A DNA stretch of 22,239 nt, taken from the IMG/VR virus record IMGVR_UViG_3300047121_000229, positions 1 to 22,239 of that record, one strand, 5' to 3'. Shown piece by piece: positions 3,907 through 13,346 of this stretch. The translations under genes and the position numbers were made by a program. Position 1 is the stretch's first letter; every line of letters begins with the position of its first letter. Source of the stretch: a virus. A model generated the notes under the pieces. That model had not been told where the DNA came from, did not search any database, and saw only the letters and a program-made list of their open reading frames with translations.

Positions 3907-3962
3907 ATTAATTTTAGTTACATATTTGCCCAATATCGAAATTATTTTTATTATTTCGCATC

Positions 3963-4637
3963 ATGGCACGATTTCTTAAAACCTCCGACTATCTTTCAAT
4001 AATTCAAACGGTTGACCTCAATCAAATTACCGAGAACACACCGCAGAATTTGTACGATAGCGAGGTTAAGGCCATAAGTAGAATGAGGACAAAATTAGTC
4101 CAAAGGTACATGGTTGACATTGAACTTGGCACGATGGATGCCTATTCAAACAGCCGCCACTACCGTACACGTGACCGAGTGATAGCAGGCGAAGTGATTA
4201 CACATGTTAAGGACTTCAACAGATGGGATAAGACAACCGAATACGCAAAGGATGATATTGTTACCGATAACAACGGCTTTGTTTACACGGCATTGGTAGC
4301 AAGCACAAACAAGGCATTGACCTTAACAGCATTCTGGACACCGATGATTGGATATGTAACAAGTAATGCTTTTTATTGGACAGTTGGCGATAATAGATAC
4401 CCGATGTTTGTTGAGTTGGCAATGGATATGACCTTGTATAACTTGCATGCACGAATTAACCCGCGCAATATTCCCGATTTAAGAATAGAACGCAACAGAG
4501 AAGCATTGGACCAACTTGATAGATGGGCAAGTGGCACAGATACAGCAGAGGTGTTGAACATCAACACAGCAGATAGTGAGGGCTTTAGCATCCGTTACGG
4601 TAACAGTTTAGATAAACAAGATAATTTCTTTAAGTAA
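3963..4637 (+). CDS. Head-tail connector, Mu gp36-like (DUF1320), with inserted CBM5/12-like module
   Basis: The predicted connector sits between portal and tail. The N-terminal part (YLSIIQTVDLN... to about residue 70) and the C-terminal part (PMFVELAMDMTLYNLHARINPRNIPD, 147-171, then ERNREALDQLDRWASG) fit the DUF1320/Mu gp36 helical pattern. Between them, residues about 88-128 form a separate module with the pattern W-x3-TxYAxxDxV...VYxxxV...FW, like carbohydrate-binding modules 5/12. The same pattern recurs in the gene at 8899. At 224 residues it is longer than a usual gp36 (about 140), which the inserted module explains. The gene stops one base into the portal ATG (TAATG), so expression is coupled. 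The family call rests on pattern and gene order, and sugar binding is untested. Confidence 0.72.
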   Translation: MARFLKTSDYLSIIQTVDLNQITENTPQNLYDSEVKAISRMRTKLVQRYMVDIELGTMDAYSNSRHYRTRDRVIAGEVITHVKDFNRWDKTTEYAKDDIVTDNNGFVYTALVASTNKALTLTAFWTPMIGYVTSNAFYWTVGDNRYPMFVELAMDMTLYNLHARINPRNIPDLRIERNREALDQLDRWASGTDTAEVLNINTADSEGFSIRYGNSLDKQDNFFK

Positions 4638-8902: not shown

Positions 8903-9600
8903 GTAGCATAATCAATACAGACTCGTTTGCGGTAAACTTCCTGCCACCAAAGAAGCGGTTGCCGATATACAAGGCATGGGTTAAGACACTTGTGAAACCG
9001 TTACAAGTGCTATACAACACAATGTTTGGCACGTTTAAAGATGGCAACACAGCACCGTTATGGGTAACAGCCACAGCGTATGCAGTTGGTGACCAAGTGC
9101 AATATGAGGATAAATCAGTGTATGAATGTTGGGTAATCAACACAGGCATGTTACCAACTAATACAGATTATTGGTTTAAGATACAAGATAAATTCGTAGG
9201 CATTGAGCCAAGATGCAAGTATAACGCACAGCACTTGTTGTTTGAATGGGCGTTAAACGAATGGTTTGGTACTACGTTTGTGAATGTGCCGGGAGCGAGT
9301 GACATTTATATTGATATAACAGGAGCCAACACAGGTGCTTTTTTAGTTGGCTACACACCAACAGAAAGCAGTTATGTTGTTTTTGATGAACCCGAAGCGA
9401 GCGGTTACATTCAAGCCGAAAACCTTACAACGGTTGCAATATCATTCACAATACATGTACCGCTTGCCGTTGCTAATGCACTAACAAATGAAACCCCAAA
9501 CACAGTGCCAAATATAACCGCAAACAGAGAGAATATTATTAGGCAGATAGCCGATTTGTACACATACGCAGGAATTAATTATAACGTAATAACATACTAA
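8899..9600 (+). CDS. Baseplate/tail protein (gpI-position) with CBM5/12-like module
   Basis: It follows baseplate J, the place held by gpI/gp48-type tail proteins that link wedge to fibres. Residues 1-50 (LPPKKRLPIYKAWVKTL...) are helical, and residues 110-125 (QHLLFEWALNEWFGTTF) introduce a second beta-rich domain. Between them, at 55-95, lies a module W-x3-TAYAVGDQVQYEDKSVYEC...YWFKI, the same pattern as in the connector at 3963 and like carbohydrate-binding modules 5/12. The gene overlaps its upstream partner by ATGA and the downstream gene by TAATG. A link between baseplate and receptor-binding proteins is inferred from order; sugar binding is untested. Confidence 0.6.
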   Translation: MSSIINTDSFAVNFLPPKKRLPIYKAWVKTLVKPLQVLYNTMFGTFKDGNTAPLWVTATAYAVGDQVQYEDKSVYECWVINTGMLPTNTDYWFKIQDKFVGIEPRCKYNAQHLLFEWALNEWFGTTFVNVPGASDIYIDITGANTGAFLVGYTPTESSYVVFDEPEASGYIQAENLTTVAISFTIHVPLAVANALTNETPNTVPNITANRENIIRQIADLYTYAGINYNVITY

Positions 9601-10436
9601 TGAAAAAAATAAAAACAACAGACATCATTGCAGGAAGCGCAATGCCTTTGAAATCGGGTAGTTTAGACCACTTACAATCAGCGTATCAAGAGCCGTTAAT
9701 AGATATAATTCAAACCTTTGAAGCAAAGAACGATACAGAGGCATTTCCTAATTATAGCACACCTATTATTATGTATGGTTGCCGTTGGACAGGAACAGGT
9801 GTATCACAAGGAGTTGTGGTTTATGGTACTGAAATATACAGATGCCAAGCGGTTAATATTACTCTTGGCGTTGGTCAAGTTGTTATTGGTACAATTACAA
9901 CTACATACTTAACGGCAACCAATGCCGACCCTGTTATATTCAGCGATAGTACAAGTAATAACTTGCACGAGATTAGACAAATCGTTTGGAGCGCAGGAAC
10001 AACAGGAAGCGGTGATTTTGACCTTGATGATTGCCTTATGTGGGGCAGATGGCAAGATGTAACGTATAGTGCAAGTTATTTAACTGCTGCAACAGGTAAT
10101 TGGACATTGCCAGGTGGGGCATCAGATTGGCAAGTTAGATGGAAGCAAGTAGGTAGAACAGTTATTATTGATTTTTATGTGTTTAATTCTACTTTATCGG
10201 CATCGCCTGCCAATATTAAATTAACACTGCCTTTCAATGCTAATTTTTTAAAAGACCATCATGCAATTTGTTATTATCAAAATCCTGCTGCAACACCAAC
10301 AGCAGGCGCATGCAGAGTGATAGCGTTAGCTGGAACAACTAATTTGCAATTTATACCCGCAACAACTACATGGGTTGCAGATACAGGAACGGTTGATGTT
10401 TACGGGCAGATTACAGTTGAATTAGATAAATTCTAA
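9600..10436 (+). CDS. Putative tail fibre / receptor-binding protein
   Basis: The 278-residue protein starts with a helical KKIKTTDIIAGSAMPLKSG...LDHLQSAYQEP segment that looks like a virion-binding head, followed by entirely beta-rich, Thr/Gly/Val-rich sequence with many aromatic residues and a C-terminal strand-turn repeat (GRTVIIDFYVFNST, IKLTLPF, LQFIPATTTW, VDVYGQITVELDKF). This is the usual build of a trimeric fibre or knob. It ends the upstream baseplate block (J, gpI-like, fibre). Its stop overlaps the stop of the minus-strand RHH gene, so the two genes converge. Codon use in the last two thirds is more AT-rich than in the J gene, as expected of exchanged receptor-binding parts. The receptor is unknown. 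Confidence 0.6.
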   Translation: MKKIKTTDIIAGSAMPLKSGSLDHLQSAYQEPLIDIIQTFEAKNDTEAFPNYSTPIIMYGCRWTGTGVSQGVVVYGTEIYRCQAVNITLGVGQVVIGTITTTYLTATNADPVIFSDSTSNNLHEIRQIVWSAGTTGSGDFDLDDCLMWGRWQDVTYSASYLTAATGNWTLPGGASDWQVRWKQVGRTVIIDFYVFNSTLSASPANIKLTLPFNANFLKDHHAICYYQNPAATPTAGACRVIALAGTTNLQFIPATTTWVADTGTVDVYGQITVELDKF

Positions 10437-10612
10437 AACCTATGCTTCCCATAATGCTCCGAGATTATCTCTTTGAGCAGATATGACTCTTTGGTTCCTG
10501 TACGTTCCACCTCATCAAAGAATTTCTTTTTTAATTCGCCTGTTAAGTGAGCGGTAACGCGTGCTTTAGCAGCTTGTTTCTTTGTGTTTATATCGCTTTT
10601 TGGATTAGCCAT
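10433..10612 (-). CDS. Ribbon-helix-helix (RHH) DNA-binding regulator, 59 aa
   Basis: On the minus strand an ATG at 10612-10610 opens 59 codons to a stop at 10435-10433. The protein has a basic N-terminal arm (MANPKSDINTKKQAAKA), then RVTAHLTGEL as the beta ribbon, KKKFFDEVERTG as helix A, and TKESYLLKEIISEHYGK as helix B. This is the classic Arc/CopG-type layout and length for a dimeric repressor that reads its operator with the ribbon. It converges with the fibre gene (stops overlap) and diverges from the prohead protease gene. A 9-bp inverted repeat flanks its own -7 box, which suggests autorepression and perhaps control of the capsid genes. The domain is assigned by pattern; the target is inferred. 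Confidence 0.78.
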   Translation of the reverse strand: MANPKSDINTKKQAAKARVTAHLTGELKKKFFDEVERTGTKESYLLKEIISEHYGKHRF

Positions 10613-10623
10613 TGTTAGATATT

Positions 10624-10652
10624 AGTTACTAAACATGCCAAAATTAGTAACT
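10624..10652. promoter_or_regulatory. Inverted-repeat operator candidate for the RHH regulator
   Basis: AGTTACTAA (10624-10632) and its exact reverse complement TTAGTAACT (10644-10652) are separated by 11 bp, giving a 20-bp centre-to-centre spacing, about two helical turns. The spacer and the right arm contain the -7 box of the minus-strand RHH gene. Such spacing suits two RHH dimers on one face of DNA. A further GTTAC lies at 10676-10680. Confidence 0.6.
10639..10646 (-). promoter_or_regulatory. Minus-strand -7 box of the RHH gene
   Basis: On the minus strand this reads TAATTTTG, a full match to TAnnTTTG, 26 bp before the RHH start codon. A TTTA about 22 bp further upstream may serve as a weak -33 element. 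The box lies between the two arms of the inverted repeat, so repressor binding would block it. A plus-strand promoter for the protease gene is less clear: CACTTTTG at 10681-10688 matches TAnnTTTG with one mismatch, with TTTG at 10655-10658. Confidence 0.5.
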
Positions 10653-10692
10653 TATTTGGATTAAACCCTAAATATGTTACCACTTTTGCAAT

Positions 10693-11799
10693 ATGAAAAT
10701 CACAAACATATCTAACGACACGGCAACGATGCTTATATATAAGCATATTGGTGATATTGACGATATGGGCATGGGCATCAACGGTGCTTGGATAGCAGAG
10801 GATATTCAATACTTAAATGATAACTATGCAGAGCAAGTAAAGTGCATCAATGTACGCATCAATTCAATTGGTGGCAGTGTTGCCGATGGACTTTCTATTG
10901 TGAGCGCAATACTAAACTCAAAGATACCTGTAAACACATACATTGATGGCATGGCTTATTCAATGGCGGGTGTGATTGCGATATGTGGCCAAAAGAAATA
11001 CATGGCCGATTACGGTACTTTTATGATGCACAACGCTAACGGTGGCAGTGATGAAGAAGTGTTGAGTTTAATCACCAACAGTTTAGCAAAGATATTCGAG
11101 CGCAATACCTACCTCACACTTGACAAGTGCAAAGATTTGATGGCCAAAGAAACATGGATGACTGCCGAGGAGTGTATGAGTTTAGGCATTGTTGATGAAA
11201 TTATACAAACAAAGAAAATGAAGCCAGCGATGAACGCAACCGTGCGAGAATTGCATGCTATCTACAATAAAGTAATAATCAAAACAGAAACCAAAATGAA
11301 TAAATTAACTGATTTATTAAAGCTAACCAATGAAGCATCAGAAGAAGCTATCATTGAAGCAGTATCGGCCAAAGATGCAAAGATTGCTGAATTAGAAGCA
11401 AGTATTGAAGCGCAAACAGCAGAGTTGAACGCATTAAAAGAAGCCGCCACCGAAGCCGAAAACGCTATCAAAGCGGAACTAATTGAGAACGCTGTAAAAG
11501 AGGGCAAGATTGATGCTGCAACAAAAGAAATTTACTTGACAAGCAACAAGTCAAATGCAGAGTTGAAAGACCTTATCGGTAAATTGAAACCTGCATACAC
11601 TCCGATATTCGACAATGCAAAGAAACCCGAAGCAGTTGTTGGTCGTGAAAATTGGACTTTCAATGATTGGTCAAAGAATGACCCGAAAGGACTATTAGAG
11701 ATGAAAGAAAACGATGCAGTTGCTTTCAGTGCTTTAATCAGCAAGTTACCAAGCAACTTATCACCGAATTACAACCCGGCAACCGATAAACAATTCTAA
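10693..11799 (+). CDS. Prohead maturation protease (ClpP-like) fused to scaffold-like domain
   Basis: The N-terminal 170 residues form a ClpP-type serine peptidase: oxyanion segment SIGGSVADG (58-66), nucleophile Ser90 in DGMAYSMAG (85-93), general base His113 in MMHNANGG (111-118), and a final LGIVDEI (164-170) that ends the fold. Residues about 222-262 are a charged heptad-rich coiled coil (IAELEASIEAQTAELNALKE...), and the C terminus (to 368) contains RENWTFNDWSKNDPKG. This protease-then-scaffold order is known from phages such as Mu and lambda. In them the protease clears scaffold and trims head proteins inside the procapsid. An internal ATG at residue 202 (11296) could give a separate scaffold product. 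It sits just before the capsid genes. The call is firm for the protease and good for the scaffold. Confidence 0.88.
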   Translation: MKITNISNDTATMLIYKHIGDIDDMGMGINGAWIAEDIQYLNDNYAEQVKCINVRINSIGGSVADGLSIVSAILNSKIPVNTYIDGMAYSMAGVIAICGQKKYMADYGTFMMHNANGGSDEEVLSLITNSLAKIFERNTYLTLDKCKDLMAKETWMTAEECMSLGIVDEIIQTKKMKPAMNATVRELHAIYNKVIIKTETKMNKLTDLLKLTNEASEEAIIEAVSAKDAKIAELEASIEAQTAELNALKEAATEAENAIKAELIENAVKEGKIDAATKEIYLTSNKSNAELKDLIGKLKPAYTPIFDNAKKPEAVVGRENWTFNDWSKNDPKGLLEMKENDAVAFSALISKLPSNLSPNYNPATDKQF

Positions 11800-11995: not shown

Positions 11996-12331
11996 ATGGC
12001 AACTATTAACAACCCATTTGGCGCAGCAGGCACGTTAACGATTGCTGCAACAGGCACAACAGCCGCAACCATCAGCAACAACGAAACCGTTGTATCTACG
12101 TTAACAACACTTACAGGCAACGCCACACTTGACTTAACTTTATCAAGCGAGTTGAAAGCAGGCGCACAATTGCACATTAAAGTAAAAACCACCGCAACTG
12201 AAACATTTACCTTTGGTACAGGCATTGATGCGCCCGTTGTTACAGGTGTAGCAGGTAAAACATGGTGTCAATCTTTTTGGTTTGACGGAACTATTTTCTT
12301 GCCTTGTGGAGCAAAAATTCAAATTGATTAA
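11996..12331 (+). CDS. Putative capsid decoration or head accessory protein, 111 aa
   Basis: The protein is Thr/Ala/Gly-rich and predicted to be nearly all beta: TLTIAATGTTAATISN, NATLDLTLSSELKAGAQLHIKVKTTATETFTFG, then KTWCQSFWFDGTIFLPCGAKIQID. It has no charged domain, signal peptide or membrane segment. The place directly before the major capsid gene is where phages often carry decoration proteins, and the composition fits a small virion beta protein. No family motif is recognised, so the role is inference from order and composition only. Confidence 0.45.
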   Translation: MATINNPFGAAGTLTIAATGTTAATISNNETVVSTLTTLTGNATLDLTLSSELKAGAQLHIKVKTTATETFTFGTGIDAPVVTGVAGKTWCQSFWFDGTIFLPCGAKIQID

Positions 12332-13310: not shown

Positions 13311-13346
13311 AAAAAGCCCTGCTCAACAAATGGGTGGGGCTTTTTT
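13311..13346 (+). terminator. Rho-independent terminator after the capsid gene
   Basis: A 15-bp stem (13311-13325 pairing with 13331-13345, including three G-U pairs) encloses loop ACAAA and ends in a run of T to 13346. The GC core is GCCC/GGGC, with A-run and T-run outside, so it could work in both directions. It separates capsid from sheath, and no strong promoter was found before the sheath ATG at 13361. Confidence 0.85.

Follow-up and report, generated by a model that had tools for sequence, protein, structure and literature searches.

What lies at the head of the head-gene block in this phage, between an open reading frame at 9600-10436 and the head maturation protease gene, and does it act on the genes that follow? 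The stretch of DNA analysed here (the window) is a virus record of 22,239 bases. It encodes a Mu-like portal, a head protease, a major head protein, a DUF2586 sheath and a tape measure, a set that identifies a myophage. The protease gene, of the ClpP/S49 type, is located at 10693-11799 on the plus strand (PF00574, E 4e-21; phrog_2976, E 1.6e-39) and is the first gene of the head block. The initial annotation had proposed that a self-regulated ribbon-helix-helix (RHH) repressor gene was embedded in the late operon, flanked by fibre, protease, scaffold and capsid genes. The gene was found instead in front of the protease and divergent from it. The names protease, capsid (major head protein), sheath and portal are backed by matches, whereas the ORFs called fibre (9600-10436) and scaffold (11996-12331) showed no match to such families in Pfam or PHROG, which leaves these two names unsupported. 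In the same window, the gap from the major head protein gene to the sheath gene holds AAAAAGCCC and its complement, 17 bp apart (13311-13345), which may form a terminator.

Judged by portal and protease, the nearest cultured relatives are Flavobacterium phages of the Winoviridae, at 27-35% identity. To our knowledge, little is known about gene timing in Bacteroidota phages, and the promoters of Bacteroidota differ from the E. coli type. A 35.5-kb relative (G001) is probably near complete, since both of its ends seem to fall in the baseplate-hub gene. The RHH gene is the sole convincing minus-strand gene of G001; another relative, G003, has further minus-strand genes near its ends. Also in G001 (L011 contig, oriented), the stretch 10770-11090 encodes 106 aa that include an RNA polymerase alpha C-terminal domain (PF03118, E 3.9e-11); the protein may be a transcription factor of the phage.

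The gene under study occupies 10433-10612 on the minus strand, starts with ATG and encodes a protein of 59 aa, MANPKSDINTKKQAAKARVTAHLTGELKKKFFDEVERTGTKESYLLKEIISEHYGKHRF. A scan of IMG/VR yielded 62 loci (viral contigs) carrying it, with full-length copies 86-100% identical and one copy frameshifted. A true frameshift in the latter (L061) was rejected in favour of sequencing error, because many ORFs are broken across that contig. Among 46 distinct coding sequences, most of the variation fell at third codon positions and pN/pS was 0.12, indicating strong purifying selection. The frame was intact in 46 distinct full-length copies, and stop codons interrupted each other frame in 39-46 of these. 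Hence, the 59-codon minus-strand gene that had been predicted is borne out by the 62 contigs and by its pN/pS, and its frame is conserved in relatives. No homologue of the protein was detected among phage records by tblastn. In the contigs of 84,980 genomes, no relative of either the RHH gene or the protease was found, nor was a prophage. The gene and the convergent ORF 9600-10436 overlap at their stops, and there is no neighbour on the same strand; it is a single gene, lacking the adjacent co-transcribed toxin gene by which a type II antitoxin would be recognized.

No Pfam or PHROG model matched the 59-aa protein or its alignment, and for this reason automatic annotation is likely to miss the gene. 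When PDB was searched by sequence, only unrelated matches were obtained (stilbene synthase, portal), which were taken as chance. A first AF2 model, built from a shallow alignment (A1), had a pLDDT of 68 and was discarded. The model from a wider alignment had a pLDDT of 71, i.e., medium confidence, and placed two helices (residues 25-38 and 42-55) where an RHH protein would have them. A beta strand is placed at about residues 17-23 (ARVTAHL); no strand was assigned in the AF2 monomer. Members of the RHH (MetJ/Arc/CopG) superfamily share a beta-alpha-alpha fold and form an intertwined dimer whose strands enter the DNA major groove. The model matched almost solely RHH proteins (CopG, Arc, CdbA, Reg576, KacA, AtaR, VapB, PutA, and MatP), none of them significantly when taken singly (Foldseek E above 1; VIA Z at most 5.5). 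The positional homologue in L207 matched RHH_1 (E 0.0038) and RelB (E 0.0017), both below the curated cut-offs. It is the agreement across the list of structure matches, and not any single match, that makes the protein probably of the RHH type. The RHH layout noted initially is thus supported, though short of proof, given a pLDDT of 71 and the lack of a family model.

More distant relatives were gathered using the protease and its alignment as queries, reaching down to 24% identity. Wherever DNA upstream of the protease was available and protease identity was 36% or more, a minus-strand RHH homologue stood divergent from the protease. The profile for these homologues included L192, L193, L203, L201, and L207; loci outside it (L268-L271, L273, L277, L280, L283, L286, and L296) scored E 3e-31 to 4e-11. 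Distant representatives were 28-56% identical to the window protein. No RHH homologue was seen in L208, L209, and L297, whose proteases are 24-32% identical. Two of the relatives carry additional sequence. In L277, a 94-codon gene on the same strand (2132-2416), which could be a partner or cargo, separates the RHH gene from the conserved operator. In L296, a 38-kb relative, the homologue (2040-2465) bears a helix-turn-helix-like extension at its N-terminus, before the RHH part.

Upstream of the gene, the inverted repeat described earlier was found as AGTTACTAA-N11-TTAGTAACT: AGTTACTAA at 10624-10632 and its exact reverse complement TTAGTAACT at 10644-10652. It spans 10624-10652, with arms 20 bp apart from start to start and a spacer of 11 bp. 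The window, which is AT-rich, has eight 9+9 inverted repeats, while shuffled versions have 2.6 on average and up to 8; significance from the sequence alone was rejected, the number being within the shuffle range. What raises the repeat above chance is its conservation: across 38/38 distinct upstream regions both arms are exact, whereas the centre of the spacer is variable. The arms belong to two candidate operator sites to which no strand is assigned, both invariant in the 38 distinct upstream regions. Site 1 (TTAGTTACTAA, 10622-10632) would cover about +3 to +13 of the RHH transcript; site 2 (TTAGTAACTTA, 10644-10654) pairs with site 1 as the 9+9 repeat and has its GTWAC core at -17 to -13 of the RHH promoter. 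The repeat at the gene's own promoter had been recognized at the outset, but a third site, equally conserved, was overlooked. This site 3, likewise without strand, reads GTTAC in the window (GTWAC in relatives) at 10676-10680, i.e., -17 to -13 of the protease promoter. All 38 distinct upstream regions retain it, and the central A/T is the sole position to change (32 counted by script, plus 6 printed as exceptions, in which GATTTTTG comes after GTAAC).

In F. psychrophilum, the sigma-A -7 box is TAnnTTTG at -12 to -5 (PMC9723704). Such a box, TAATTTTG, is present by sequence match at 10646-10639 on the minus strand, where it had been noted before, and the repeat, with arms exact in 38/38 distinct upstream regions, flanks it, so that a conserved operator overlaps the gene's own promoter. 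A second, -7-like box, CACTTTTG, is located at 10681-10688 on the plus strand, 4 nt before the protease start codon, and occupies the same place across clades. Each representative examined had a TAnnTTTG-like box 4 nt (sometimes 5 or 6) upstream of the protease start codon, where the chance frequency of such a box is about 1 per 1000 positions. It reads [CG]AnnTTTG in the window clade, mostly TAnnTTTG in other clades, and TAAATTTT in L207. The two promoters of the window overlap, with their boxes back to back and about 35 bp apart. Under the box-position rule of PMC9723704, the RHH transcript would start at 10634, with a 22-nt leader. The protease start codon has its first base at 10693, and by the same rule the head transcript would begin there. 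The head-gene mRNA would then be leaderless; only 5.5% of mRNAs in F. psychrophilum are (PMC9723704). As the window-clade box lacks the first T of TAnnTTTG, the head promoter may be weak or require an activator. A -33 TTTG element was set aside as variable within the clade. A scan for E. coli-type promoters and terminators stayed at shuffle level and showed no clear terminator, so read-through from upstream genes could reach the head genes; Rfam gave no match.

The distribution of the sites among relatives bears on what they bind. GTWAC was present in all clades whose protein retains RVT in the beta strand, and such sites lay upstream of every RVT-bearing relative; with the frame also conserved, the computational refutations proposed at the outset did not come true. 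The L207 protein lacks RVT, and the L207 intergenic stretch lacks GTWAC. From this joint presence and joint absence, we infer that the RHH protein binds GTWAC half-sites. Sequence-specific binding to repeated operators as a dimer or higher oligomer, a trait of the RHH superfamily, would agree with the conserved, repeated GTWAC. In the window clade, GTWAC lies at -17 to -13 in both promoters, and in the L268-L273 clade at -5 to -1 in both; such a joint shift is what would be expected if one protein acts on both promoters. Site 3 was not found in several clades (L212, L280, L277, and L286), so lineages may vary in how the head promoter is controlled.

The exact composite GTWAC[CT]AnnTTTG occurred solely at this locus in the window and in relatives G001-G010 (the near-complete ones), against a chance expectation of 0.08-0.23 per genome. 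This confinement points to a local switch, and a late regulon with many operator copies at late promoters was rejected on the same ground. A general late-gene repressor is also argued against, since read-through could still supply the head genes. Elsewhere in the window, TTAGTTACATATTTG at 3914-3928, in the intergenic gap before ORF 3963-4637, may be an extra weak site or promoter; it is common to G001 and was not found in the other relatives checked.

Conservation shows that the gene is real, that it has an operator where its own promoter lies, and that a conserved promoter-like box stands where the protease gene starts. On these grounds autoregulation by the RHH protein is well supported, and repression of the divergent head promoter would be its second action. 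We favour, with moderate confidence, a reading in which the protein is a small RHH repressor whose gene, together with the head-gene promoter, makes up a self-regulated divergent switch. Host RNA polymerase would transcribe the RHH gene from its consensus sigma-A-type promoter, probably early in infection, and RHH dimers would occupy the GTWAC half-sites. Since sites 1 and 2 straddle the gene's -7 box and transcription start, their occupation would shut the RHH promoter; the protein thus probably shuts itself off. Site 3, at the matching position in the weak leaderless head promoter, would hold back transcription of protease, capsid, and sheath. Late-gene repression is plausible and has indirect support: site 3 is invariant and takes the same position in the protease promoter (in the window clade, a conserved site stands in a structural-gene promoter in 38/38), and sites are placed alike in both promoters of L268-L273. 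The head genes could be released later as the amount of RHH protein per genome copy falls during DNA replication, or alternatively by antisense read-through across the RHH gene from upstream genes. In this manner, the RHH protein may time or limit head production.

There is an appreciable minority chance that the protein is purely an autorepressor, which would act on its own promoter via sites 1 and 2 and have its useful targets elsewhere (e.g., host genes), site 3 being a minor extension that leaves the head genes unaffected. The perfect repeat consists of sites 1 and 2, site 3 is a single half-site that several clades are missing, and the near-complete relatives have no other composite site, all of which would fit. 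This is opposed by the retention of site 3 in 38/38 window-clade sequences with the central A/T alone exchanged, by the like placement of sites in both promoters of the L268-L273 clade, and by a gene invariably divergent from the protease. A slightly smaller chance goes to a late activator: bound at sites 1 and 2, the RHH protein would silence its own promoter and so free, or help, polymerase at the weak head promoter. Activation through relief of promoter competition is possible given the sub-consensus box ([CG]AnnTTTG) of the window clade, and another viral RHH protein, AvtR, is both an activator and a repressor of the promoter next to it, according to its dose (PMC5569661). However, site 3 at -17 to -13 should obstruct polymerase at the head promoter, and other clades have the consensus TAnnTTTG box there. 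That the protein is a lysogeny (immunity) repressor, or the antitoxin in a toxin-antitoxin pair, is very unlikely. RHH folds are frequent in antitoxins and phage repressors (Arc, Mnt), and VapB, KacA, and AtaR appear among the structure matches, but the window clade has no second gene beside the RHH gene, no prophage was found in the 84,980 genomes, and in the part of the G001 ORFs scanned by eye no integrase or transposase was evident. A spurious ORF with a chance repeat, which a repeat near chance in an AT-rich window and the lack of a family model might suggest, is ruled out by conservation (pN/pS, 46 intact distinct copies with the other frames stopped, and a repeat invariant in 38/38).

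How does the divergent switch that we favour compare with known systems? Arc (phage P22) and CopG (plasmid pLS1), the top fold matches of the window protein, are short autoregulated RHH repressors. They showed no sequence similarity to it in the PDB sequence search, and unlike it they act on ant in the immI region and on plasmid copy number, respectively. The closest functional precedent that we found is SvtR of the archaeal virus SIRV1. This Sulfolobus virus protein represses its own gene, binds most tightly at a structural-gene promoter, and was proposed to prevent early structural-gene expression (PMC5569661). Like SvtR, the window protein is small, viral and probably of the RHH type, and would have its own gene and a virion structural gene as targets. 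SvtR differs in belonging to an archaeal virus, in having several genomic binding sites, and in its target, gp30, which is tail-fibre related; no sequence match was found. AvtR of the Acidianus virus AFV6 is a repressor of its own gene and, from the intergenic stretch that the two genes share, also acts on gp30 next to it (PMC5569661), an arrangement resembling the one predicted here. Unlike the window protein, it has two fused RHH motifs per chain, and its neighbour is a predicted RHH gene, not a head gene. In the limited collection of literature searched, we found no tailed phage with an RHH repressor directed at its head genes, which does not prove that none exists.

The Winoviridae have a comparable slot, represented by pippi81_gp033 of Flavobacterium phage pippi8-1 and by an ORF of FPSV-S1 (L218:3643-3837). 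As in the window, a short minus-strand gene and the head protease gene point away from each other, and a conserved repeat lies between the two. The product differs, being helix-turn-helix-like by eye (..FLSEDTIWKDF..); a second gene comes after it, and TAAAGACAAA-TAAAGAC takes the place of GTWAC as the repeat. In L217 (4655-4837) and L218, the helix-turn-helix-like gene and a second gene of about 168 aa precede the protease, with the common repeat TATAAAGACAAA-TAAAGAC; the slot of L208 resembles these. In the pippi isolate, no genes for lysogeny were found by the authors who reported it (PMC7077304). With the DNA-binding assignment in Winoviridae made by eye, a helix-turn-helix-like gene in the same place suggests that the slot, rather than the protein, is conserved. 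Tentatively, and as something more possible than probable, the head block of broad Bacteroidota-type myophages may begin with a dedicated slot, in which overlapping divergent promoters, one of them leaderless, are served by a local regulator that binds DNA, of the RHH type in one lineage and replaced in Winoviridae by an unrelated helix-turn-helix protein.

Beyond the initial annotation, the locus now has a third GTWAC site, a -7-like box for the head genes and, by implication, a leaderless head mRNA. The 59-aa candidate repressor and its 80-bp control region are small enough for full in vitro testing, and the RHH switch could reveal how these phages delay or limit head production.
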